Program-made: the position numbers and the translations under genes | Source of the DNA: a virus | Reading direction: 5' to 3' (one strand) | IMG/VR virus record: IMGVR_UViG_3300027754_000488 | Span: 1-21,979 of that record | DNA length: 21,979 bases | The notes under the pieces: generated by a model | What the model saw: the letters and a program-made list of their open reading frames with translations, nothing else | Databases searched by the model: none | What the model was told of the DNA's origin: nothing | Shown: positions 7,956 to 21,459 of the stretch, in pieces | How positions within the stretch are numbered: position 1 is the first letter of the stretch | How the letters are laid out: every line of letters starts with the position of its first letter

Positions 7956-8333
7956 ATGGGCAATAACGTATTTGAAAAATTAACTGAGAAATATCCATTT
8001 ATCAGCTTGTGCATGTATGCAAACGCTGAGTATGTGGGTGTTATCCAGAACAAAGATGATGTGGTAACCACCATCTATGACTTCGGTGCCGTGGCCGATC
8101 AAATGGACAAGATGTTATACTTGGAATTGGCATCTGTGTGGTGGTGGGAAAGCAATAGATCCATCCCCATCAACATCTTCTTGCGCAAAGATTGGGAACC
8201 ATTCCGCTACACATTGCGCACATTCGTCAACAAAGATCTAGAAATAATGCACGGGCCTGCTTGCAGTTTGCTGGACATAGCCCGCAAAAAAAGCAAACGC
8301 AAAAGCATCATGCTGGTGCGACGGCTTGATTAA
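7956..8333 (+). CDS. Conserved-type hypothetical phage protein, late
   Basis: 125 aa from the ATG at 7956. Longer in-frame starts from 7881 would run through the late box and the divergent gene's promoter, so they are rejected. The sequence has an alpha/beta look: NNVFEKLTEKYPFISLCMYA, then a beta-rich YVGVIQNKDDVVTTIYDFG, WWWESNRSIPINIFLRKDW in the middle, and a basic C-terminus with ARKKSKRKSIMLVRRLD. I do not recognise the family. Its late promoter and compact, basic-tailed form would suit a virion, assembly or nucleic-acid-associated factor. Its end overlaps the convergent gene by 26 nt. Confidence 0.75.
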   Translation: MGNNVFEKLTEKYPFISLCMYANAEYVGVIQNKDDVVTTIYDFGAVADQMDKMLYLELASVWWWESNRSIPINIFLRKDWEPFRYTLRTFVNKDLEIMHGPACSLLDIARKKSKRKSIMLVRRLD

Positions 8334-8886
8334 GCAGATTCATATGCAATGCTACCAGGGCCGCATATCCTAATGCGTGAGCTTTTTTAAACACATATCC
8401 CCGACTATCGTCACCATCCCACACTGATCCAAACACAGTCGGCCAAGATTGATTCTGTAAGTGCGCTTTGCCCGGACGTATGATAGAGATAAATGCTGCC
8501 ATCCTAGGAATTGAATCTGGTCGCATGCTCTGTAACAATGCTGTGTAGTTGCCCACATGCACCAATTGCTGTGCCCAGGTCGAATCCTGCCATAGACGAT
8601 CCCAGGGCGGCGTGTTAGACAACATCTCGTCATAGTGTGCAGGATCTTGAATCAGGCCATACACGCCCATGTTCAAAAAGTCTATCTTGAAATAGCCACG
8701 TGACTCGGCAGTTTCGTAATCTATTGCTGCACACCCCAACACAGGATCTTGCGGAATATCTGTTACATACACACCCGAATTGTGTTTTCTTGCTGTGTCT
8801 TGATGCAGTTGCCGTGCAGGTGTGTGCTGTATCAGTTTCAACACCAGTTCTCTGTCAGCAAAGTCAATGTCAATGTCTGCGCTCAT
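8308..8886 (-). CDS. Miniature DnaE-like (family C polymerase core) protein
   Basis: 192 aa. It carries, in the right order, short blocks that resemble the catalytic core of bacterial DNA polymerase III alpha (about 1,160 aa). DIDIDFADR at 4-12 matches the DxD block. ARKHNSGVYVTD at 32-43 matches the GKHAGGVVIAP block. RGYFKIDFLNMG at 63-74 matches VKFDFLGL, which holds the third catalytic Asp. MRPDSIPRMAAFISIIRPG at 121-139 matches the LQPDCFEDMIALVALFRPG block. YVFKKAHALGYAALVA at 164-179 matches YGFNKSHSAAYALVSY. The PHP, beta-clamp-binding and OB parts are absent, as is most intervening sequence. Possible roles are a polymerase-derived nucleotide or DNA-binding factor, or a minimal catalyst. 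Last gene of an operon, with AGGA 7 nt before the ATG and a 1-nt gap from the zinc-finger gene. The similarity comes from remembered family motifs, not a search. Confidence 0.75.
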   Translation of the reverse strand: MSADIDIDFADRELVLKLIQHTPARQLHQDTARKHNSGVYVTDIPQDPVLGCAAIDYETAESRGYFKIDFLNMGVYGLIQDPAHYDEMLSNTPPWDRLWQDSTWAQQLVHVGNYTALLQSMRPDSIPRMAAFISIIRPGKAHLQNQSWPTVFGSVWDGDDSRGYVFKKAHALGYAALVALHMNLLNQAVAPA

Positions 8887-8887
8887 G

Positions 8888-9562
8888 CTACCATCCTGCT
8901 TGTTTTAACATTTCTTTTGAGTATTCCTGGTCAGCTGGATATGTTTGGAATTTCTTTTGCCACACATCTGAATCAATATAACTCCAGATTATAGCCACCT
9001 GATCCGGACTCAGCTCGCTCAAGAACTTCTGTCCCGATTCGCTGTTGTAAATCGCCCACGGACTTATACGACCAGTGGTTATGGCATGGCATATTGCATT
9101 AGCGTTGCCATATCGTAAACAATCATGCGCTGGGTTGCCAGTTTTTTCTGACCAATCTAGACCATATTCCATTGCTCGTGCAAGTGCATCATCCACTGCT
9201 TCTAGTGTGAGATAATTTGTTAGATACTCTGTGTACACTTGATCGCTGCACCAACGATCAATCTTCTTCTGTTGCTTGAGTAACCAGGCCATGAACCTTT
9301 CTGGATTGATCACCCGTGTGTTTACACAATAGTGTCCAAATTTTACAAAGGCACGATAGTAAGATGATGTTTCAAAATCTTCAAATGTTTTAGATTTGGC
9401 CGAGCCCTGCATGGTCTCGTAGAATCTCACATAGGCTTGCAATGCCAGCTGTACACCTCTATCCCCGCGTTGCAGTCTGCGGCGCTTGGGCTCGCACATG
9501 TGTACTTCGATACTGCTTTCTCTTGAGAAAGTTTTATCACAATAACCGCAAGTGAATGTCAT
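8888..9562 (-). CDS. Zinc-finger protein of unknown function
   Basis: 224 aa. The N-terminus has a single zinc-finger-like motif, C5-x2-C8-x12-H21-x-C23 (FTCGYCDKTFSRESSIEVHM then C), followed by the basic run PKRRRLQRGDRG. The rest (about 35-224) is helical with many aromatic residues and no motif I can assign. The finger resembles eukaryote-style C2H2/C2HC fingers and probably binds nucleic acid. The gene starts in an ATGA overlap with the upstream gene and sits one nucleotide before the miniature DnaE-like gene, so the two are probably made together. The function is unknown, but a DNA-metabolism role is likely from context. Confidence 0.78.
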   Translation of the reverse strand: MTFTCGYCDKTFSRESSIEVHMCEPKRRRLQRGDRGVQLALQAYVRFYETMQGSAKSKTFEDFETSSYYRAFVKFGHYCVNTRVINPERFMAWLLKQQKKIDRWCSDQVYTEYLTNYLTLEAVDDALARAMEYGLDWSEKTGNPAHDCLRYGNANAICHAITTGRISPWAIYNSESGQKFLSELSPDQVAIIWSYIDSDVWQKKFQTYPADQEYSKEMLKQAGW

Positions 9563-10005: not shown

Positions 10006-10292
10006 TTTGTTTTGGTCAAGTTATAGATTATTATAGCACGATCCAAGGCATCTTGTAAAGTGGGATTGGTGCGGGCTGCTCTGCGAATGTTGCCCCACAT
10101 TTTGTCTTCCATCATCGAGTCGCGGCGGGTTTTCATTCCTGCCCTGATGTCTGCGTCTCGCCGCTCTTCGTAGGTGCCGTAATCGTATCCCACTTCCGTT
10201 CTTGTGCTGGGATCTGCGCCGATTTCGCGCATGTACACCGTGTCACCATCACGTTCATATATGTATGTGGCATCCGGTTTTAACTGCCCCAT
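10002..10292 (-). CDS. Small hypothetical phage protein
   Basis: 96 aa from the ATG at 10292, which overlaps the stop of the upstream gene as TAATG. A TTG two codons earlier is less likely. The sequence begins MGQLKPDATYIYERDGDTVY and has a beta-rich N-terminal half, a charged middle (TYEERRDADIRAGMKTRRD) and a helical C-terminus (NPTLQDALDRAIIIYNLTK). It looks like a known type of uncharacterised protein in T4-like aquatic phages. No catalytic motif is visible. Coupling to both neighbours ties it to the DnaE-like operon. Confidence 0.72.
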   Translation of the reverse strand: MGQLKPDATYIYERDGDTVYMREIGADPSTRTEVGYDYGTYEERRDADIRAGMKTRRDSMMEDKMWGNIRRAARTNPTLQDALDRAIIIYNLTKTK

Positions 10293-10792
10293 TACCAAGC
10301 CTTATTATAGTCCACTATTTCGCAGTTGCGACTGATGTCTTTGACAAAATACACACAATCGGGCTCTGCGTCGTCATTCAATGGCACTGCTAGCAATTGG
10401 CCATTTTTGAGTTTGGGTGCAAACCAATTGACTTCGTGATACACATCCAAGATTTCGATGTCAGGAAAGCTGGGACGGAAACTGGTCAGCGGATTGAATT
10501 GGAATACCTTAAACCCTCGATCATTAATGCTGGTGAGTGGCAGCACTTCGAGGTCGCCTACATCTGGTTCACCGATCAGGATCTGCCAGTCCATGGGCAT
10601 TTTGATAGTGGCATCGCCTATCCTTAATACCAGTGCAGGTGCATTAAAACTTTCCAGGAATATGAGTGGTATAAAATGATAGTCTGGATCTTTTGGATCC
10701 GAGTTATCCAAGATGGCAAATCTCATATCATCAACTTCGTCGGGCAAGTGGTCTAGGTCATAAAAGCTATTGTCTAAAGTTAGTATTCTCAT
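10292..10792 (-). CDS. Hypothetical protein, first gene of the DnaE-like operon
   Basis: 166 aa, predicted largely beta: MRILTLDNSFYDLDHLPDEV, then FIPLIFLESFNAPALVLRIG, MPMDWQILIGEPDVGDLEVL, and NDRGFKVFQFNPLTSFRPSF. It is acidic, with no signal peptide or membrane span. I do not recognise the family. The gene sits directly behind the best sigma70-type promoter of the window, with its ATG only 6 nt past the -10 box and no Shine-Dalgarno sequence, so it should be translated from a leaderless mRNA. Early or middle expression is therefore likely. Confidence 0.78.
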   Translation of the reverse strand: MRILTLDNSFYDLDHLPDEVDDMRFAILDNSDPKDPDYHFIPLIFLESFNAPALVLRIGDATIKMPMDWQILIGEPDVGDLEVLPLTSINDRGFKVFQFNPLTSFRPSFPDIEILDVYHEVNWFAPKLKNGQLLAVPLNDDAEPDCVYFVKDISRNCEIVDYNKAW

Positions 10793-10829: not shown

Positions 10830-11747
10830 CTAGTAACTTAATTTCCAATTGCGTATAGTAGGATCATAATAAAAAACAATATCGCTACCTGTTCGAAATT
10901 GATCTTTGATAGATTTGGCAACATTACCAAACCAGCAGTTGTCGCTGTGCAAAACAACATCCTGAAAAAATATTTGCCATTTTAATACAATCATTGGAAA
11001 ATTTTTGCCCACAATATTGTTAGGTATGGTGATTTTTATATCGTGTTCAACATTGGATTGATTCAAGTTGATGATGATCGGCTCTGTTTGACCTGTTTTG
11101 ATTAATTTTAAATCATTGAACCGATCCAACATAGTGAATAATCGATTGAATTGGTTGGCTGTGTAAATTGTTTTTTGTAGATCGTACTGCTGAGTGAAGT
11201 CCTGATTGGCATGGTCAACAAAGTTCGACCCAACAGCAATGCCTGGATCAAATTCGTATGATTCATTCATGGACAAATCAAGTACAAATATCGGATGATC
11301 TTGATAGACTTCTGCCCACACTCTGAATCCCGAAGGTATAAATTGTCCGCCACGATCAACTGCATGATTGCTTAGTTTTAAAATATCTTCACCGAATATC
11401 TGTGTGTTGATAGTTTCGCTGACATACACGTCGGCTTGAATATTGCTGTCGATAAAATCAATGCAATGGGTTTGAATTTTATTCTCAAGACCTAATTTTT
11501 GTAGATTTTGATTGAGATATTCAAATCTATCTGCATTTCTTTCAACAGCAATCACATGTTTTGCACCGGCTTGCAATGCCAACACACTCAGCAACCCGGT
11601 ACCTGCACCAATATCGCATACGATCTTGTCCTTGGCTGCAAGATCTAATGCTTGTTTATAAAACTTATTTCGGCCGGTATCATTTAACATAGGCATGAAC
11701 GCACCATCGTCGGCCATGAAATCAATTCCTGTTGTGTCACTGGCCAT
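10830..11747 (-). CDS. Protein arginine methyltransferase-like (PRMT) protein
   Basis: 305 aa, the length of a PRMT core. SAM-binding motif I is VCDIGAGTGLLSVLALQAGA at 43-62, followed by HVIAVERN (E69, the acidic ribose-binding position). SETINTQIFGE at 110-120 matches the PRMT double-E loop (SEWMGYCLFYE in PRMT1), with the two glutamates (E111, E120) nine residues apart as in the family. The rest is beta-rich like the PRMT barrel, including VLKWQIFFQDVVL, which resembles the THW-loop strand but keeps only the Trp. PRMTs are mainly eukaryotic, so a phage member is unusual. A substrate cannot be read from sequence. The ATG overlaps the uvsW stop as TAATG, and this is the last gene of the operon. 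A different methylation target or loss of activity remains possible. Confidence 0.8.
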   Translation of the reverse strand: MASDTTGIDFMADDGAFMPMLNDTGRNKFYKQALDLAAKDKIVCDIGAGTGLLSVLALQAGAKHVIAVERNADRFEYLNQNLQKLGLENKIQTHCIDFIDSNIQADVYVSETINTQIFGEDILKLSNHAVDRGGQFIPSGFRVWAEVYQDHPIFVLDLSMNESYEFDPGIAVGSNFVDHANQDFTQQYDLQKTIYTANQFNRLFTMLDRFNDLKLIKTGQTEPIIINLNQSNVEHDIKITIPNNIVGKNFPMIVLKWQIFFQDVVLHSDNCWFGNVAKSIKDQFRTGSDIVFYYDPTIRNWKLSY

Positions 11748-13216
11748 TAGTTAATTTTCATCCATTCTAATTTTTCAGCAGTGAATGGATAGTTGGCCTC
11801 TTTGTAAAACACCTTGCGTTTGTTTAGATGTCGTTTGGCAAACTTGCATGTGCTAGTGATATCCCATATCTGCACATGATCTTTGTCTTCGGCTTTGCGG
11901 ATTCCACGTCCAATACTTTGGATCACACGCACAAAACTCTTGCCCGGCTCGATCAGCACAAGGTTAAAGATACGCGGTATGTTGATACCCACAGCAGCCA
12001 CACCATATGTGGCCACGATGATCTTGCCATCACTCACAGCAATCTCATCATATTCAGTCTGGCGTACTTTGGTCTTGGTAGCACCAGATACAAACACTGC
12101 ATGATCGCCCAAGCGTTCTACCAACTGGCGCCCACATTCTGTTCGATCTACCAACACCAAGGTATTGCCAGTTTCGTTAACTCGTTGTATAAGCGAAGCC
12201 ATGGTATCCAGTCTGCCGGATTCTTCTAGTAGATATTTTAGTTCTGCCTGATAGTCTGCGTATTCCACATGATCTACCAATTGCACTATGTTCACATGGC
12301 AGTTGGCCAGCACACCAGCGTCTTGCAATGTGCTTGCAGATAGTCTACTGATAACCGGGCCAAGACTGACCAGCAATGCCTGGCTCTCAAACAGTTCTTT
12401 AGGTACAGTTCCGGTCAATCCCCATCGAATTGGCACTCTAGACATCACCCCTGTCAGCAGAGTTTTTAATGCATCTGCCTTGGCCATGTGTACTTCGTCT
12501 ACCATCACACACACAACATCTTCTATGAACTCTTGGATGGTGCAGTCGCCTATGCCATTCTTGGTATTCTTCATGAGATTGTTTAGACTCTGCCAAGTAC
12601 AAATGGTATGTGTTCGACCGTATTCTTTTCTGTCTCCAAAATACACGCCCACATCCAGTCCCATGTTGATGTAGTCTTTTTCTGTTTGGGTCACAAGACT
12701 CTTGTTGGGCACAATGACGATACTGCGACCATACTTGCCAACTGCGTCGCTTAATGCTGCTGTCATGATGGTTTTACCTGCACCGGTGGCCACTTCCTGT
12801 ATGCATTGTGGGTTGGTTAAGAAGTTGTTGATGATCTCCACTTGATAATCGCGCAGCAGTATGGGCTGGCCTTCTGCAGGATGATTCTTGGGCCACAATC
12901 GATCGCTGTAGCTTTGTTCTGTGACCTGTGCAAACTCAAACGTGGTTGAGTATTCTCTGCGGTCATCTAGTTCGATGTCGTAGTCAAATCGTTCCAATAG
13001 CGGAATGATATCCGGCAACAGATTCACATATGTGCTGCCGCCCAGTTGAAAGTAGGATACTTTGCCGTCCCATCTTCCAAGTCGCACAGCTGGTAGATAC
13101 CGTGCGTATGGAATATCGTATTTGAATGCTTTGACCAATGCTTTGCGAGCGTCAATATCAAGACCTTCAATCTTGATATTCACTTCGTCTTGTATGATTA
13201 TGGTTGCTTGTTTCAT
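11747..13216 (-). CDS. uvsW: UvsW-type DNA/RNA helicase
   Basis: 489 aa from the ATG at 13216. The frame is open 11 codons further upstream, but the ATG at 13216 overlaps the previous stop as ATGA and is preferred. T4 UvsW has 503 aa. It is a superfamily 2 helicase that unwinds R-loops and branched DNA and moves phage replication from origins to recombination. The N-terminal part has the UvsW-like VRLGRWDGKVSYF (44-56). Motor motifs: LLRDYQVEII (120-129), Walker A ATGAGKT (143-149), DEVH box VMVDEVH (237-243), WGLTGT, and motif VI QSIGRGIRK near 440. It sits in an operon with methyltransferase-like and unknown genes, which is not the usual T4 setting. Confidence 0.93.
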   Translation of the reverse strand: MKQATIIIQDEVNIKIEGLDIDARKALVKAFKYDIPYARYLPAVRLGRWDGKVSYFQLGGSTYVNLLPDIIPLLERFDYDIELDDRREYSTTFEFAQVTEQSYSDRLWPKNHPAEGQPILLRDYQVEIINNFLTNPQCIQEVATGAGKTIMTAALSDAVGKYGRSIVIVPNKSLVTQTEKDYINMGLDVGVYFGDRKEYGRTHTICTWQSLNNLMKNTKNGIGDCTIQEFIEDVVCVMVDEVHMAKADALKTLLTGVMSRVPIRWGLTGTVPKELFESQALLVSLGPVISRLSASTLQDAGVLANCHVNIVQLVDHVEYADYQAELKYLLEESGRLDTMASLIQRVNETGNTLVLVDRTECGRQLVERLGDHAVFVSGATKTKVRQTEYDEIAVSDGKIIVATYGVAAVGINIPRIFNLVLIEPGKSFVRVIQSIGRGIRKAEDKDHVQIWDITSTCKFAKRHLNKRKVFYKEANYPFTAEKLEWMKIN

Positions 13217-13776
13217 ATTATGACTGTGCCGTTTTGTAAAGCTAACCAAGTTTGATAAAGATTTTTGTCTAGATTGGCTATACCTAATTTTTCCAAGGAT
13301 TCAATCGCGTGTCCGGCAAGTATGCCTTCTAATTTTACAATATCTTTAGTGTGATTTACGACCATGTTGGAGTAATGGATCAACATCTGTGCATAATCTT
13401 CAATGGTATTGGCACCACATTTTGATTGCATTTCTTCCCACACATGAGGTCTATGCATACTACGAAATCTTTTGGCTGCCCACATAGCCACAGCAAAATC
13501 CTGCACAGTAATTGCTATGAATTTGTGATATCGCAAAACATGATAATCAAGATCATGGCTTGGTATGCTGAGATATTTTGTCGATGTATCAATGATATAT
13601 TGATCTTTTTCTTCATTGTTAGCAAACGTATGCGGTTTCTTAAGGCGTTGCCTTGCTGAAACATGTGATATGGCACTAAATTCAAATTCTGTATCTGTTG
13701 AGTCAATCAGGGCCGACAATAAATCTCCACAGGTGCCGCCAGTATAGCATACAATTTTTAAATCACTGGATTCCAT
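13213..13776 (-). CDS. Hypothetical protein, P-loop-like N-terminus
   Basis: 187 aa. The N-terminus KIVCYTGGTCGDLLSALIDS (about 7-26) has the strand, Gly-rich loop and helix layout of P-loop or sulfotransferase-like proteins, but it is not a classical Walker A. The rest is helical with many His and Tyr residues. A nucleotide or PAPS-binding role is possible but weakly supported. GGAG lies 5 nt before the ATG. The gene overlaps the upstream gene by 19 nt and uvsW by ATGA. Confidence 0.72.
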   Translation of the reverse strand: MESSDLKIVCYTGGTCGDLLSALIDSTDTEFEFSAISHVSARQRLKKPHTFANNEEKDQYIIDTSTKYLSIPSHDLDYHVLRYHKFIAITVQDFAVAMWAAKRFRSMHRPHVWEEMQSKCGANTIEDYAQMLIHYSNMVVNHTKDIVKLEGILAGHAIESLEKLGIANLDKNLYQTWLALQNGTVII

Positions 13777-14453
13777 GGATCTCCTTTATACACAAACCAA
13801 AATTTTAGATTACCATTGGTTGAGTCTGGGTTTTCGAGCTGATCATAATAGCCGTTTTGATCGGGTAGTTTTTTAGAAAAATCAACACTATGCCATACCA
13901 GTTGTAAGTCCAGTCTTTGTTTTAACGATCTAGCCCAGTCAGAGAAATGTGACTCCATATCAGTTGTCAGTCGATTCACATGCATCTGTGTATCTCTAAA
14001 ACTATAAAACAATCTACACCCAGGATTCATGGTCTTGATATAATTAGAAAAATGGTCGGTTATTCCATCAACTGTACACCACATCTCGGCTCTATTGTTG
14101 ATCACGACAAAGTTATCAACTTTGAATGGTAATATTGTTGATAAATCGGCTCTATCGGTGCAAATATAAGCATCAGGATAAAATGTCTTGACCACCGGAT
14201 GCATCTCTACCACTTCAACATCCGGAAATATATCTCTTATGTAATAGCCTGCGCTACCAAAAAATACAGTTTTTCCTGGTTGGCAATTTTTCATTATGTC
14301 ATGATCGTACCCATCAATGATTGCCTTTGTTGGATTTTTCCGATTCCACAACCAATATTGATGTTTGAGTCTGCCTATGCGATACCGAATGTATTGTGTT
14401 TTCCAGTCAATTTTTTCCAGTGATTGATCAAAGAATTCAATAAGTTTAGTCAT
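13758..14453 (-). CDS. Hypothetical protein, Rossmann/methyltransferase-like
   Basis: 231 aa. GKTVFFGSAGYYIRDIFPDV, then EVVEMHPVVKTFYPDAYI, follows the strand-loop-helix-strand-acid pattern of class I methyltransferase folds (G-rich loop, acidic strand end), with VINNRAEMW where motif IV would be. The loop sequence is atypical, so SAM binding is uncertain. The N-terminal 45 residues are basic and aromatic (WKTQYIRYRIGRLKHQYWLW), and the C-terminus is rich in Trp, Tyr and Asn. Its ATG overlaps the stop of the 182-aa gene as ATGA. It may work with other enzymes of this operon. No product can be named. Confidence 0.7.
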   Translation of the reverse strand: MTKLIEFFDQSLEKIDWKTQYIRYRIGRLKHQYWLWNRKNPTKAIIDGYDHDIMKNCQPGKTVFFGSAGYYIRDIFPDVEVVEMHPVVKTFYPDAYICTDRADLSTILPFKVDNFVVINNRAEMWCTVDGITDHFSNYIKTMNPGCRLFYSFRDTQMHVNRLTTDMESHFSDWARSLKQRLDLQLVWHSVDFSKKLPDQNGYYDQLENPDSTNGNLKFWFVYKGDPWNPVI

Positions 14454-14998
14454 AATTTTCTAATAAAGAAATGTCTGTCGGGTATGACCCAGGTAAATGC
14501 AGTGCCATGATCCACATAGTCCAATGATAGATCAACAATATCATAACCGGGCAATTGTTTTTTTAGCCATTGTGACACAGCTACATTAAAATTCTCGTCG
14601 AGAGTTTGATCATGGTAGCTGTTGTCAATGTTGATATAATGTTTGTTTAGACATAGATACAATTGTGGACAACGATCAAGTTGATTTTTTATCTGCTGTA
14701 TCAAAACCGGGCAAGGATATCTACTGAATTTCTGATCAGTTATAACAACTAATTCTGCCTCGGAACTGTTGTTGCATCGTGTCATGTCAGTCATATCAAC
14801 GAATACATCAGTATCCGTTTTGAATTTCACTCGTGTGTATCCATTGAGTTTTACAAAATCTCTGATCTGTTTTTCTCTTCTCAATTGCACCGGCTCGGCA
14901 AAAAAGTTCCGTTGTAATCGATTAAAAATACGAGCCCAATGGTACAGTGCCCTTGGGGGGTCAACCACTAATGGTCGGTTTGGAATAAAATTAGTCAT
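14450..14998 (-). CDS. Hypothetical protein, first gene of the uvsW operon
   Basis: 182 aa, family not recognised. It begins MTNFIPNRPLVVDPPRALYH and contains a basic patch (RLQRNFFAEPVQLRREKQIR), a beta-rich middle (YTRVKFKTDTDVFVDMTDMT, AELVVITDQKF) and a His/Asp-containing C-terminus (DYVDHGTAFTWVIPDRHFF). The ATG is 7 nt after a TATTAT -10 box and has no Shine-Dalgarno sequence. It heads the unit 14998-10830. Confidence 0.7.
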   Translation of the reverse strand: MTNFIPNRPLVVDPPRALYHWARIFNRLQRNFFAEPVQLRREKQIRDFVKLNGYTRVKFKTDTDVFVDMTDMTRCNNSSEAELVVITDQKFSRYPCPVLIQQIKNQLDRCPQLYLCLNKHYINIDNSYHDQTLDENFNVAVSQWLKKQLPGYDIVDLSLDYVDHGTAFTWVIPDRHFFIRKL

Positions 14999-15005
14999 AG
15001 TGTAT

Positions 15006-15034
15006 ATAATAACATATATTCATTCAACAGTCAA
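15006..15034 (-). promoter_or_regulatory. Sigma70-type promoter of the uvsW operon
   Basis: On the minus strand, -35 TTGACT (15029-15034), 17 nt, -10 TATTAT (15006-15011), then ATACACT and the ATG at 14998. The -35 lies inside the last codons of the radical SAM gene. The -10-to-ATG segment is identical to that of the radical SAM promoter. Confidence 0.75.
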
Positions 15035-16147
15035 TAGTGCATGCGCCATTTCAGGAAATGTCTTTGCAAAATCCAATCCTCGATACTGATCGTGTTGATG
15101 TAATCGCTGACAGAACTGTTCAAACTGATCGCTGTGATCTGCGTTGGCAATCATTCTGGCCCAGGTACGCACATCTTCATAATGACTGTGAGACAGATGG
15201 TTAACAATGTATTGTTTGTTGGGCCATACTGTGGGTCTCATATGTGTAGGACTATGCACCCTGCCCAGCCACGGCCTTGGTAATCCTATATTCGCACACC
15301 AGGTGAAGAATTCGTCTAGATAAAAAATATTATAGGCACTTACCGTGTGACTCACGCTGAGTTTGAGATTAGGCAACGGATGTTGTAGATATTTTGCCAC
15401 ATTGGCTTGTGTGACTTCCCAGTTGGCCGGGTAACGTATATATTCGTATTTTTCACCCACACCATCTATGCTGAGTTGGATATCTACTTCACGAAAGTGA
15501 TTCCATAGCCTCCACCAATCCGCATCCGGGAACACAGTTGCGTTGGTGGTATAGTGCAAGGAGATATTGTGTGCTTGTCCTGATTTGATATAATGAGTCA
15601 GCAGTTTCTTTTGTTCTGCTAGCCCACTTAGAAATGGCTCTCCTCCGGGTATGTCCAGATGTATTATACCAGGTGCCTGTGATATAAAAGTTTTGACGAA
15701 ATCATTTCGATAAAACTTCACCGGCCGAAAATCTTGCCCATATATGTCCAGATATTCTTTGTGCCACCGACTACTGGCATCACTGCTGCAGGTGATGCAT
15801 TTTAGATTACAAGTGTTTCCAAATGCTATACTGGCAGTGAGCCATTGATCACTGTCCAGTTTATATTGAGCATAGTGTGTGTGCCATCGATCATGATCCA
15901 ATTGACGTTTACTTTTTATGTTGTTATCTTCATCGAGCTGGCATCGAATACACCCTGTGGGCCAGGTATCTTGAGTGAATTTTTTCTTGAGATCGTCCAA
16001 GAAGGCACTGCCGGAATATTGGTCCAATGAATGAGTTTGTATATTGAATATCGGATCGTCAACTGCACGTTGATATTTACAACAAGGCATTATAATTCCT
16101 TGAGGATCTATATCAATATTGGTCCAGGGAGAATAGCAAAAGGGCAT
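15020..16147 (-). CDS. Radical SAM protein with cysteine-rich N-terminal segment
   Basis: 375 aa from the ATG at 16147. The frame extends 16 codons upstream but would cross the promoter. The radical SAM cluster motif NTCNLKCITC holds C113, C117 and C120 (CxxxCxxC), and GGEP at 168-171 is the SAM-contacting motif. The N-terminus has CC at 22-23 and C66/C69 around FCYSPWTNIDIDPQGIIMPC and CIRCQ, resembling the auxiliary-cluster domain of twitch/SPASM-type enzymes but placed before the core. QLSIDGVGEKYEYIRYP is a typical later core segment. These enzymes often modify peptides or small metabolites. The substrate is unknown. It is a monocistronic leaderless unit between a terminator and the next operon's promoter. 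Confidence 0.87.
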   Translation of the reverse strand: MPFCYSPWTNIDIDPQGIIMPCCKYQRAVDDPIFNIQTHSLDQYSGSAFLDDLKKKFTQDTWPTGCIRCQLDEDNNIKSKRQLDHDRWHTHYAQYKLDSDQWLTASIAFGNTCNLKCITCSSDASSRWHKEYLDIYGQDFRPVKFYRNDFVKTFISQAPGIIHLDIPGGEPFLSGLAEQKKLLTHYIKSGQAHNISLHYTTNATVFPDADWWRLWNHFREVDIQLSIDGVGEKYEYIRYPANWEVTQANVAKYLQHPLPNLKLSVSHTVSAYNIFYLDEFFTWCANIGLPRPWLGRVHSPTHMRPTVWPNKQYIVNHLSHSHYEDVRTWARMIANADHSDQFEQFCQRLHQHDQYRGLDFAKTFPEMAHALLTVE

Positions 16148-16154
16148 AGTGTAT

Positions 16155-16183
16155 ATAGTAGCATCTTTCAAAAACAAAGTCAA
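16155..16183 (-). promoter_or_regulatory. Sigma70-type promoter of the radical SAM gene
   Basis: On the minus strand, -35 TTGACT (16178-16183), 17 nt, -10 TACTAT (16155-16160), then ATACACT and the ATG at 16147. The first bases of the -35 are also the last bases of the preceding terminator's T-run. Confidence 0.75.
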
Positions 16184-16206
16184 AAAAACAGGCACCTAAG
16201 TGCCTG
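16182..16206 (-). terminator. Rho-independent terminator
   Basis: Minus-strand stem CAGGCAC / GTGCCTG (7 bp, loop TTAG, 16189-16206) is followed by seven T residues (16182-16188). It ends the transcript of the ATPase, small ORF and structured-RNA unit, and its T-run merges into the next -35 box. Confidence 0.88.
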
Positions 16207-17633: not shown

Positions 17634-18341
17634 TCAGCGCCATAATTGTGCAATCGTAGGGTCTGATATCTGATGTGGCTTGGGGGATCCGTGGAACACT
17701 ACCACCGCAGCATCCGGAGAGATTTTGACTCCAGTGGCCGGCGATCGATGCTGGCGGCGTTGGAAATTATATCCGCCATCCAGGCATTGCCATCTAAAAC
17801 TCTGGAATAGCTTGTCGTCGAAAAATCTACGCTGATTGACATTGAGGGCTTTGGTGATATAATCCTGATCGCCTTGATTGTTTTTGGTCAGTTGGGCAAT
17901 GTCACCCTTGGAGAACTGATCCCATATCCAGGAAAAATTACTCACATTCCACCACATGAAACTGCTGTTGAATCCTTCGAAGTGTGAGTTTTGTAGATAT
18001 CTAAAATCTCTTATGCCCCAGAAATAACCGGTGTCATGATTCAACACCCAAGACAAATCTCGCACAACCACTGTGTCTAGATCTAGGTACAATAGGTTAC
18101 CTGCATGATGTTGGGGGTTGAACATCTGCATTTTGTACCACCAGGATTTTTTTGGTCCTGCGATACCCGGCCATTCAGTCAATATGTGTTTGATCATGTG
18201 AGGCGGCACAGATCTGTCATGTTCAGTATACACATGGAAACGGATGCCGCCAGGCAGATTCCGTGTCAACATGTTGTACAGATTTTCTACATAGCGCCAG
18301 TTATATCCGGTGCTGTGGATTACACAGGCACAATCGATCAT
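17634..18341 (-). CDS. GT-A glycosyltransferase-like protein
   Basis: 235 aa from the ATG at 18341, which overlaps the previous stop as ATGA. A start 11 codons upstream is possible. The N-terminus IDCACVIHSTGYNWRYVENL is a nucleotide-sugar-binding type strand and helix. LLYLDLDTVVV at 83-93 carries the DxD metal motif (D87, D89) typical of GT8-like enzymes, and FNSSFMWWNVS follows as the usual acceptor-side segment. The C-terminus has an HG (VVVFHGSPKPH) like the GT8 HGxxKPW motif. It probably transfers a sugar to phage DNA, virion protein or host glycan; the target is unknown. It is the second gene of the 19192-17634 unit. Confidence 0.87.
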   Translation of the reverse strand: MIDCACVIHSTGYNWRYVENLYNMLTRNLPGGIRFHVYTEHDRSVPPHMIKHILTEWPGIAGPKKSWWYKMQMFNPQHHAGNLLYLDLDTVVVRDLSWVLNHDTGYFWGIRDFRYLQNSHFEGFNSSFMWWNVSNFSWIWDQFSKGDIAQLTKNNQGDQDYITKALNVNQRRFFDDKLFQSFRWQCLDGGYNFQRRQHRSPATGVKISPDAAVVVFHGSPKPHQISDPTIAQLWR

Positions 18342-19192
18342 AGTTCCAGACACAGGGCGATTCTTTTTAGCCATAAGCCTTCCGTTAGTTCATCAAGAGT
18401 GTATTCAGTATGGCAGATCTCAGTCAACCATTGCTGTCTATCTGCCCGGTATGGTTTTTCTATATCTTCTACAGCAACCGACACTGGTGCGGCCAGACTG
18501 GATTCGTGGACCACAGGTCTGCAACCCGATATGGCTGCTTGTATGCCTGGTCCAGAGTTGTAATTAACCACAGCATGATATGCATAATCCATATCAAACC
18601 CGTCGTAGGTATTGGGCACAGATCTTGGTATTTCCAATCTTACTCCGGTAGGCAAGTGCGGTAGATTCAATCGTGATCTAGGATGTGGTCGAACAATAAT
18701 GGGCCGATCGCTCACAGCCTGTAGATCCCGTATGCGATCCAACACCCAGGATTCTTGACTGGGCAAGTCTTGAACCTGCAGGCTACGGCTATGCTGTGCA
18801 GCTATCATGATGTCTGGCCTGTGGCTGTTGTTTGTTGATAACTTTACACCCAGCTTGGCCGGGCGATCAGGATCTAGATCTTGTGTGTGTCCGTAATAGC
18901 CCTGTGATGTCACATGATTTACTGCAATCTTCCAAGTGCGACCCCTATGTAATGCACCCACTTCAATTATGATTACTGGACGATTCAATCGACGATAATG
19001 TTCATACACCTGTTGATTGGCCCGCATGCGACCATTCCATAACACAGACCAAATTATTGCAGCATCAGTATCCCAGGTATTTTCTTTTGTTTGCAACCCG
19101 TGAGCATGCAATGCTGTTAGTACTGCTGACATAACAGGAGGGCTGTTCCCAGCTGATTGCGAGGGAAAATAAGATAGGGTTTTTATGCTCAC
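18338..19192 (-). CDS. GT-B/capsule-type sugar transferase-like protein
   Basis: 284 aa with a GTG start, because no ATG is close and the N-terminus IKTLSYFPSQSAGN makes a good first strand. A start at Met22 is less likely. Marks of capsule-type (Kps/GT-B-like) transferases are RPIIVRPHPRSR (strand with HPR), AVVNYNSGPGIQAAISGCRPVV (Ser/Gly donor-binding loop) and the C-terminal block with RQQWLTEICHTEYTLDELTEG. The last two blocks match the plus-strand protein at 20004-20816 (AVVAFNSTAATEAIIAGVPVF; RHAWLCHLAYGQFHIDEFKNG), so the two are paralogues. The gene is divergent from 19204 with only 11 nt between starts. Confidence 0.82.
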   Translation of the reverse strand: MSIKTLSYFPSQSAGNSPPVMSAVLTALHAHGLQTKENTWDTDAAIIWSVLWNGRMRANQQVYEHYRRLNRPVIIIEVGALHRGRTWKIAVNHVTSQGYYGHTQDLDPDRPAKLGVKLSTNNSHRPDIMIAAQHSRSLQVQDLPSQESWVLDRIRDLQAVSDRPIIVRPHPRSRLNLPHLPTGVRLEIPRSVPNTYDGFDMDYAYHAVVNYNSGPGIQAAISGCRPVVHESSLAAPVSVAVEDIEKPYRADRQQWLTEICHTEYTLDELTEGLWLKRIALCLEL

Positions 19193-19198
19193 TAAATA
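19191..19198 (+). promoter_or_regulatory. Late-type promoter variant, ACTAAATA
   Basis: ACTAAATA ends 5 nt (TCTGA) before the ATG at 19204, the same spacing as CATAAATA before the gene at 7956. No Shine-Dalgarno sequence precedes the ATG. It overlaps the start codon of the divergent gene. Confidence 0.45.
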
Positions 19199-19203
19199 TC
19201 TGA

Positions 19204-20007
19204 ATGAAATACTGTGTAGTTACCACTTTCAATGCCGCCGGTTACGAAAAATACGGTAAACGCATGATTCAAACTTTCTTGCGCACCTGGCCCACGGATG
19301 TGCAACTGGTGGTTTATGCTGAAAAATGTGCAGTACAAGAACATGCTGCCAATCTATTAGTACATGATCTTGAATTGGTCAGTCCAGAATTGGTAGCATT
19401 CAAAAATACCTGGCGCGATGTGCCCAAAGCCAATGGTGATGTCAGCAACGATCCTGCTCGGTCACGCCGCAAAGATGCTGGCAAAGGGTTCAAATGGGAC
19501 GCAGTTCGATTTGCTCACAAGGTCTACAGCATCTTCCATTGTGCAAAAAACACACCTTGCGATTGGTTGTTGTGGATGGATGCTGACACCATTTGCCATA
19601 GTACAATCACACAGTCCGATCTTGACAGACTGTGCTTCAGTTTGGTTGATCTGTGCTTCTTAGGGCGCAGCCGCAAATATACTGAATGTGGATTGTATGC
19701 AATGAGATTGGCAAGTCCTGCGATCCAATCATTTTTACAAAAATTTCAAGCGGCATACGATCATGCCGAAACTGGAATTTTTACCCTAGACGAATGGCAT
19801 GATAGTTTTGTGTTTGATGCTGTGCGAAAACAATGCAATCTGATCGAATTAGACTGGAGCAGTCATTTGATCTCTGGTGAAGGACATCCTTTGATCAATA
19901 GTGATTGGGGTGCATACCTAGATCATCTCAAAGGCGACAGAAAAGATCAAGGGCGCAGTAGAAGAGCAGACTTAAAAGTCAAACGAACCGAAGCATACTG
20001 GCAATGA
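19204..20007 (+). CDS. GT-A glycosyltransferase-like protein
   Basis: 267 aa. The N-terminus MKYCVVTTFNAAGYEKYGKR resembles GT-A enzymes in which the first strand is followed by an acceptor-handling helix. KWDAVRFAHKVYSI then WLLWMDADTI (121-130) gives the DxD metal motif in MDADT. CGLYAMRL and LDEWHDSFVFD look like the usual later substrate contacts. The basic tail (GDRKDQGRSRRADLKVKR) is notable. Similar proteins are seen in aquatic phages. Likely transfers a sugar in surface or virion glycosylation. It starts the plus-strand unit behind an ACTAAATA box and is coupled to the next gene by ATGA. Confidence 0.85.
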   Translation: MKYCVVTTFNAAGYEKYGKRMIQTFLRTWPTDVQLVVYAEKCAVQEHAANLLVHDLELVSPELVAFKNTWRDVPKANGDVSNDPARSRRKDAGKGFKWDAVRFAHKVYSIFHCAKNTPCDWLLWMDADTICHSTITQSDLDRLCFSLVDLCFLGRSRKYTECGLYAMRLASPAIQSFLQKFQAAYDHAETGIFTLDEWHDSFVFDAVRKQCNLIELDWSSHLISGEGHPLINSDWGAYLDHLKGDRKDQGRSRRADLKVKRTEAYWQ

Positions 20008-20816
20008 ACTGGATCTGTCTAAGTAAAAATGGCGAGGACGAGTACATTGACATGTTTGCTCGTGGTGCCGGCATGGAGCCTACGCCCCTGGAAACTTGGA
20101 ACTATGCAGACAGCACAGACCCGCTGGTGTTGCGTGGCATCATGAAACACAAGATAATCAAACGCTGTTGGCAGGACAAAAGATTCTTCTGGTATATGGA
20201 TTCGGGTTACTTGGGCAATCGTCCCAGCATAAAAAATCCCAATGGATGGAAACATTGGCATCGCATCGTGCCTAACAATTTACAGCACGATCAAGTGATA
20301 CCACGTCCGGCTGATAGATTAAAACAATTAGATCTGCACATGAGGCCGTATCATCAACATAGTCGTGACATATTGATTGTTGCTCCGGATCATAAACCTT
20401 GTGCTTTTTATGGGTTTGAATTGGAAGATTGGTTGACTGATGTCAAGACCAAACTCAGCATGTACACAGATCGCCCAATAAAAATACGTGAACGCCCGGC
20501 CAGCAGAATGGATCGCAAAACCCAACGTGCCGAAGATTGGCTGGCAGATGTACATGCTGTGGTCGCATTCAACAGCACCGCAGCCACAGAAGCCATAATA
20601 GCAGGTGTACCAGTGTTTGCCACAGCACCTTGCAATGCTGCTAACCCAATGAGCAATCACGATCTTTCTAAAATCGAAGAGCCGTGGTTTCCCACAGATG
20701 ATCAACGCCATGCTTGGCTTTGCCATCTTGCATATGGACAGTTCCATATAGACGAATTTAAAAATGGTATGGCATACCGCATACTTAAACAAACACAGGA
20801 GATGATAAATGGCTGA
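20004..20816 (+). CDS. GT-B/capsule-type sugar transferase-like protein (paralogue)
   Basis: 270 aa, paralogous to the minus-strand protein at 18338-19192 through its C-terminal half: RPIKIRERPASR, HAVVAFNSTAATEAIIAGVP with the donor-binding Ser/Thr-Glu, then WFPTDDQRHAWLCHLAYGQF. DILIVAPDHKPCAFYGFELEDW starts the second domain. The first 100 residues differ and may set acceptor choice. It is coupled to the upstream glycosyltransferase by ATGA and overlaps the FkbM gene by 8 nt, so the three act as one unit. Confidence 0.82.
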   Translation: MNWICLSKNGEDEYIDMFARGAGMEPTPLETWNYADSTDPLVLRGIMKHKIIKRCWQDKRFFWYMDSGYLGNRPSIKNPNGWKHWHRIVPNNLQHDQVIPRPADRLKQLDLHMRPYHQHSRDILIVAPDHKPCAFYGFELEDWLTDVKTKLSMYTDRPIKIRERPASRMDRKTQRAEDWLADVHAVVAFNSTAATEAIIAGVPVFATAPCNAANPMSNHDLSKIEEPWFPTDDQRHAWLCHLAYGQFHIDEFKNGMAYRILKQTQEMING

Positions 20817-21459
20817 ACATTACGGATGGCACTTTCCGGATTTTGAAACACACTTTCCCAAGATGCTGAAGAAAAGTGTGGATAAAGGTCTACTGCCCGA
20901 ATATCAAGTGGCAGTCCGGAAACGAAGCATTGATCTTTGCAAGTCTCGTGGCATTGCATTAGACATCGGTGCCAACGTGGGACTATGGAGTCGAGATTTA
21001 GTTAAGAATTTTGCCAAAGTTATCGCATTCGAACCAGTGGGATTATTTAGAGAATGTCTGGAAAAAAATGTCTCAGGTGATAATTTTTTCATCAGTCCAA
21101 TGGCACTAGGAGATCAGGACAGTCGAGGAACCATGATCATAACTGAAGAGAATAGTGGGCATAGCCATTTGGATCCTGCTAGCATGGGCACCGGGGATGT
21201 GCAGATTGTACGTCTTGACAATTTAAATTTGCAGGGTGTGGACTATATAAAGATTGACTGCGAAGGTTATGAATATCGTGTGTTGCAAGGTGCAGAACAA
21301 ACAGTAAAACGCTGCCGACCCATCATGGTGATTGAACAGAAACCGCACGATGCTTACAGCAAAGAGTACGGGCAATTTGCTGCTATTAAATTGTTGGAAT
21401 CCTGGGGCATGGTCAAACTAGATCAAGTCAGAGATGATTGGATCATGGGATGGATGTAG
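20809..21459 (+). CDS. FkbM-family SAM-dependent methyltransferase
   Basis: 216 aa. SAM motif I is ALDIGANVGLWS (50-61), then VIAFEPVGLFRECLEKNV (acidic motif II) and a C-terminal DYIKIDCEGYEYRVLQGAEQ, the FkbM signature (IDxEGxE.xVLxGA). The N-terminal 45 residues are specific to this protein. FkbM enzymes O-methylate small molecules, sugars and lipids, so modification of the glycan made by its neighbours is a good guess. AGGAG lies 7 nt before the ATG. Confidence 0.88.
   Translation: MAEHYGWHFPDFETHFPKMLKKSVDKGLLPEYQVAVRKRSIDLCKSRGIALDIGANVGLWSRDLVKNFAKVIAFEPVGLFRECLEKNVSGDNFFISPMALGDQDSRGTMIITEENSGHSHLDPASMGTGDVQIVRLDNLNLQGVDYIKIDCEGYEYRVLQGAEQTVKRCRPIMVIEQKPHDAYSKEYGQFAAIKLLESWGMVKLDQVRDDWIMGWM

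Follow-up and report, generated by a model that had tools for sequence, protein, structure and literature searches.

A PRMT7/9-like methyltransferase gene beside uvsW in uncultured phages

The window analysed here, the whole 21,979-base stretch, is the record of an uncultured virus. A single minus-strand open reading frame, opening with an ATG at 11747-11745, occupies the locus of interest and encodes a PRMT-like class I SAM methyltransferase (Table 1). The upstream gene specifies a UvsW-like helicase (phrog_16, 1.1e-70), and where it meets the methyltransferase gene (minus-strand sequence AACTAATGGCC) its stop codon and the next start have one base in common. A sequence-only reading of this DNA had pointed to the TAATG overlap, a motif I and a double-E loop, SETINTQIFGE, with nine-residue spacing, and all three are present. 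Motif I (VCDIGAGTGLLSVLALQAGA) and a ribose-binding acidic residue after strand 2 belong to a class I SAM methyltransferase core. E111 and E120 lie nine positions apart, as in PRMTs, where the double-E glutamates bind the guanidinium of arginine. The N-terminal helix motif MLxDxxRxxxY, which closes over SAM in PRMTs, is present as MLNDTGRNKFY. Comparison with the nearest relative (L002) gave a dN/dS of 0.14, and the gene is under purifying selection.

Table 1. Coordinates of the methyltransferase gene, its motifs and neighbours in the window, and of plasmid genes resembling PRMT7/9
Feature	Position	Strand	Remarks
PRMT-like class I SAM methyltransferase gene	10830..11747	-	305 aa, ATG at 11747; from ORF, profile and fold
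N-terminal SAM-binding helix motif, PRMT7/9 type (MLxDxxRNxxY), residues 16-30, AFMPMLNDTGRNKFY	11658..11702	-	D23, R26, N27 invariant
Motif I, residues 43-62, VCDIGAGTGLLSVLALQAGA	11562..11621	-	invariant E69 slightly downstream
Double-E loop SETINTQIFGE (E111, E120), residues 110-120	11388..11420	-	aligned with PRMT9, PRMT7 and bacterial PRMT7/9-like proteins
Candidate THW loop equivalent CWFGNV, residues 271-276	10920..10937	-	inferred from strand order only
UvsW-like helicase gene	11747..13249	-	stop and PRMT-like start share one base (TAATG)
Conserved 166-aa gene (phrog_11279)	10292..10792	-	other border of variable slot
Plasmid genes of PRMT7/9-type appearance	L242:2435-3400, L246:2408-3331, L241:2267-3481, L243:2297-3385		

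Several other genes of the window deserve mention, beginning with four minus-strand loci. At 8308-8886 lies a free-standing 192-aa protein with a match to a DNA polymerase family (phrog_11778, 1e-50), conserved in many relatives, which also matches phrog_405 over part of that profile; next to it, at 8888-9562, a phage protein of 224 aa (phrog_11058), likewise conserved, has a C2H2 zinc finger match at its start. Three genes upstream of uvsW (13213-14998) have no clear family match and occur in few relatives, for example L083. The gene at 15020-16195 encodes a radical SAM protein whose N-terminal part has a SPASM-like match (PF13186), and relatives of this gene sit elsewhere near uvsW in other phages. 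Finally, several putative glycosyltransferase-like genes in a row, together with one for an FkbM methyltransferase (2e-18), lie in the stretch 17634-21459, which may be a cassette for surface modification.

Curated protein families give the 305-residue protein a different name from the one suggested by solved structures. The best Pfam match is PrmA (6.3e-8, above the Pfam cut-off), and in NCBIfam an L11 methyltransferase ranks first (9.3e-10), at 38 bits, far short of the 188 required; PRMT5 appears in these libraries at only 0.06. The PrmA and generic matches in both libraries are confined to the SAM-binding part, residues ~31-145. A PADLOC match to mad2 (7e-14) likewise covers only residues 34-103 of this part and was rejected as a link to defence. 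Against the PDB, a phmmer search with the single protein returned essentially only PRMTs at the top (PRMT7, PRMT9, PRMT1, PRMT6 and CARM1; best 7e-10). A profile built from eight relatives reached PRMT7 at 1.2e-19 and PRMT9 at 4e-17, with PRMTs in 59 of the 60 matches listed and the exception, at 3e-6, in last place, and one built from 24 relatives reached PRMT7 at 2.6e-25, PRMT9 at 3e-23 and CARM1 at 3e-19. The alignments behind these matches pair the MLND..RN helix motif, motif I and the two glutamates with their counterparts in PRMT7 and PRMT9, so that SETINTQIFGE falls on TETVDAGLFGE of PRMT9 and TELFDTELIGE of PRMT7. The proposal of a PRMT-like enzyme, for which the sequence-only reading had suggested a profile search, gains good support from these searches. 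Best matches to unrelated methyltransferases with an unaligned double-E loop, named there as the refuting outcome, did not appear in the structure-database searches.

Structural modelling, also suggested at the outset, led to the same enzymes. An AlphaFold model from the single sequence had a pLDDT of 36 and was replaced by one from a 30-sequence alignment, with a pLDDT of 79.5 and a pTM of 0.82. The best 50 matches of this model were all PRMTs, both in Foldseek against the PDB and in VIA-align. The leading VIA-align match was PRMT7 from C. elegans (Z 20.2, 3.4 A over 254 residues), followed by PRMT9 (Z 19.7), PRMT6 (19.2) and CARM1 (18.7). Because the match spans residues 2-305 of the model, the predicted fold includes the C-terminal barrel; confidence in the barrel part is mixed, with block pLDDT values of 50-94. 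Helices 174-187 and 200-209 of the model could form a dimerisation arm.

The PRMT barrel and THW region shape substrate choice. The C-terminal half of the phage protein matched no PRMT in the profile search, and the Pfam PRMT_C family gave no match, nor did it in control genomes. No THW loop with a histidine was recognisable; sequence and global profile alignments failed to place one. By strand order, the best candidate for a THW equivalent is the family pattern [TCVSA]-[WI]-[FW]-G at 271-274. W257 was rejected for this role, as it sits in the long strand preceding the loop.

Relatives of the protein were sought among viral contigs. A scan with the single protein recovered none, and the route through uvsW neighbours succeeded: seven relatives, 55-89% identical, were found solely in this way, with the sequence of the window protein not used as bait. 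Profile scans of IMG/VR then yielded 58, 84 and finally 132 stretches encoding relatives, and the phage family spans more than 100 uncultured phage contigs. All 73 distinct phage relatives carry E-x8-E (66 by strict pattern, seven by reading the sequences). The invariance of the first glutamate is partly built in, since some scan patterns contained E111; E120, which lies outside patterns A3 and A5, is mostly exempt. Conservation of the pair nonetheless goes beyond chance, because both glutamates lie within an invariant ADVYVSETINTQIFGE in 7/7 of the bait-free relatives. Invariant positions in a 24-member alignment are D23, R26, N27, E69, E111, E120, W257, K278, Y294 and W301, and within the helix motif M20, N22, D23, R26, N27, F29 and Y30.

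One family member is found in BFVD, A0A6J5L7A5 from an uncultured Caudovirales phage, which is 38% identical to the window protein over its whole length and was deposited as an 'AdoMet_MTases domain containing protein' only. Up to now the family has gone under generic methyltransferase names alone ('AdoMet_MTases', PrmA-like), which hide its likeness to PRMTs. Among isolate phages, tblastn, a search of limited reach, found no family member and gave only short, weak matches to the SAM-binding part. Two scans of GTDB contigs also found no relative, which is weak evidence of absence because these scans demand exact short peptides. In a tree of 142 columns, with eukaryotic rows consisting of fragments taken from PDB alignments, all phage proteins form one clade on a long stem (support 98/91, 200/200 bootstraps); the long branches and few columns do not let the tree place this stem relative to the PRMTs of eukaryotes and bacteria. 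The literature searched contained no description of a phage-encoded PRMT.

The genomic neighbourhood bears on the second half of the sequence-only reading, in which the enzyme was coupled to UvsW. In relatives, uvsW is followed by at most two cargo genes and then by the PRMT-like gene, as a rule no more than one further cargo gene, phrog_11279 and other conserved genes. Among 46 distinct relatives with uvsW in the available DNA, the PRMT-like gene directly follows uvsW in 27; in the remaining 19, one or more genes (0.6-4.3 kb) separate the two. Many close relatives of the window uvsW have no PRMT-like gene beside it. Among isolates, the nearest UvsW proteins are those of Sinorhizobium phage Phosso and Agrobacterium phage Atu_ph07 (about 470-490 kb), in which uvsW is directly adjoined by a 166-aa phrog_11279 homologue (48-49% identity) and the slot is empty. 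The slot between uvsW and phrog_11279 is thus variable, and the TAATG overlap is local economy and no evidence of a shared job. Cooperation of the enzyme with UvsW, for example by methylation of the helicase or a recombination partner, would fit the overlap and the frequent adjacency, but the intervening genes and the many related uvsW loci lacking the gene make it very improbable. The overlap and adjacency claimed for the pair are real, and the link between the two genes is only positional. Other genes occupying the slot in relatives encode methyltransferases (Methyltransf_24) and a PIG-L-like deacetylase (for example L091:2802-3401, L159:1031-1540 and L121:4291-4998).

Distant bacterial relatives were also identified. 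Using a divergent phage member, tblastn led to genes from plasmids, annotated as '50S ribosomal protein L11 methyltransferase'. Two of the encoded proteins matched PRMT7/9 in the PDB at 1e-39 to 1e-41 by phmmer, and a profile of seven bacterial proteins matched the phage profile with an E value of 4e-32 and both glutamates paired. Some of these genes, on Pantoea and Methylobacterium plasmids, adjoin genes for an iron-containing redox enzyme, a Rieske protein and an ATP-grasp protein; by analogy with szn, two such loci are possibly SznE-like clusters. A Rhizobium plasmid gene annotated as a TPR protein (L245:2003-3370) carries a PRMT7/9-like domain in a layout reminiscent of PRMT9.

Overall, we favour, at a probability of roughly 0.6, the view that in a large tailed phage this accessory gene specifies an arginine (guanidino) N-methyltransferase of PRMT7/9 type, built of one module and not dedicated to UvsW. 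Computation shows the SAM methyltransferase core, the helix motif, a double-E loop of exact spacing that is invariant, and a predicted fold that takes in the whole PRMT core along with the barrel. The catalytic evidence read from the sequence comes from ~130 residues. The enzyme-class reading stands in the form of a protein with the PRMT fold that would function as PRMTs do; the unplaced THW loop and the unrecognisable barrel sequence hold back full PRMT membership. The earlier proposal therefore divides: its PRMT-like half is upheld by profile, fold and the invariant glutamate pair, and its coupling to UvsW comes down to position. Mechanistically, the SAM core and N-terminal helix would bind SAM within the predicted PRMT fold, and E111 and E120 would clamp an arginine guanidinium beside it, as in PRMTs. 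In infected cells the enzyme may then methylate arginine side chains on proteins of the phage or the host, as the product of an accessory gene in the variable slot that is probably expressed with the replication genes.

The generic label is the alternative most readily set aside. An ordinary PrmA-type or other class I methyltransferase with a coincidental double-E loop would explain why PrmA and the L11 methyltransferase are the best names in Pfam and NCBIfam, but those matches stop at the SAM-binding part, and PRMTs lead every PDB sequence and fold search with a whole-length fit; we regard this already disfavoured explanation as most improbable. The choice of substrate is a finer question. 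The double-E loop does not by itself imply a protein substrate, because the bacterial relatives include likely small-molecule enzymes. The main rival is a guanidino methyltransferase that, in the manner of SznE/StzE, uses a small molecule, for example free L-arginine, as its substrate. The nearest bacterial relatives by tblastn include the genes beside redox, Rieske and ATP-grasp functions, a setting that may recall SznE/SznF, and the phage enzyme bears no added protein-binding domain. Against this, the window ORFs scanned include no recognised SznF-like or ATP-grasp gene, replication genes surround the phage gene in ~50 distinct contexts, and the TPR fusion of one bacterial relative suggests a protein substrate. 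Together, the lack of a recognised pathway partner and the conserved replication-gene setting weakly favour a protein, and we consider a small-molecule substrate unlikely.

Similarly unlikely is an enzyme that has kept the PRMT fold and glutamate pair but methylates another group or target, such as a different amino acid, a nucleobase or a sugar. Divergence of the barrel and THW region past sequence recognition would suit such a change, as would a phage rich in methyl- and glycosyltransferases, with the FkbM methyltransferase in the window and the further methyltransferases and PIG-L-like deacetylase among relatives' cargo. However, E111 and E120, whose known role is guanidinium binding, lie within the most strictly conserved part of the family.

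Returning to the assignment as an arginine methyltransferase, we lean slightly towards the broader proposition that the phage proteins are a clade of true PRMTs, related to PRMT7/9, that modifies proteins of the host or the virion in the course of infection. In Cellulophaga infection, by phages with no known methyltransferase, methylated lysines and arginines were detected on proteins of both phage and host in a 2026 study, which reported methylation of phage proteins as new (PMC13288928). Arginine modification during phage infection is plausible on this basis. If the proposition holds, phages possess a protein-modification system thought typical of eukaryotes, some may chemically mark their own or host proteins, and part of the arginine methylation in infected bacteria would be explained. 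With a defined family and two candidate catalytic residues, phage arginine methylation becomes directly testable. The labels 'L11 methyltransferase' and 'AdoMet_MTases' also conceal PRMT7/9-like proteins in bacteria and phages alike.

Comparison with known systems places the phage protein as follows. With PrmA it has the SAM-binding Rossmann part in common (the Pfam match above), has no match outside that part and falls far under the NCBIfam cut-off. SznE/StzE, which uses SAM to methylate the guanidine of free L-arginine, giving N-omega-methyl-L-arginine for streptozotocin in the SznE/SznF pathway (PMC11705231), is a possible functional model, set beside the phage enzyme by description only; it works in a biosynthetic cluster, no part of which is recognised in the window. 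The bacterial PRMT7/9-like proteins (plasmids of Tropicibacter, Pantoea, Tistrella and Methylobacterium, and the Rhizobium TPR protein) share profile and glutamates with the phage family; unlike it, they are longer, have WHF before the ML motif and a THW-like loop (SHW, GHW and variants), and occur in a TPR fusion or biosynthetic clusters. The best sequence and fold matches are to PRMT7 (mouse 4c4a, C. elegans 3wst, T. brucei 4m36/4m38), with which the phage protein shares the MLxDxxRN helix motif, the SAM core, the double-E spacing and, in the model, the barrel fold. Solved animal PRMT7 chains contain two tandem modules in about 650-690 residues, whereas the phage protein has one module in 305, its barrel sequence is unrelated by profile and its THW region is not recognisable. 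PRMT9 (6pdm, 7rbq, 8rbk, 9ay9), with solved chains of 719-830 residues and ~20% identity to the phage protein over the aligned fold, offers the closest likeness by eye in its LNDTxRN motif and TETVDAGLFGE loop.
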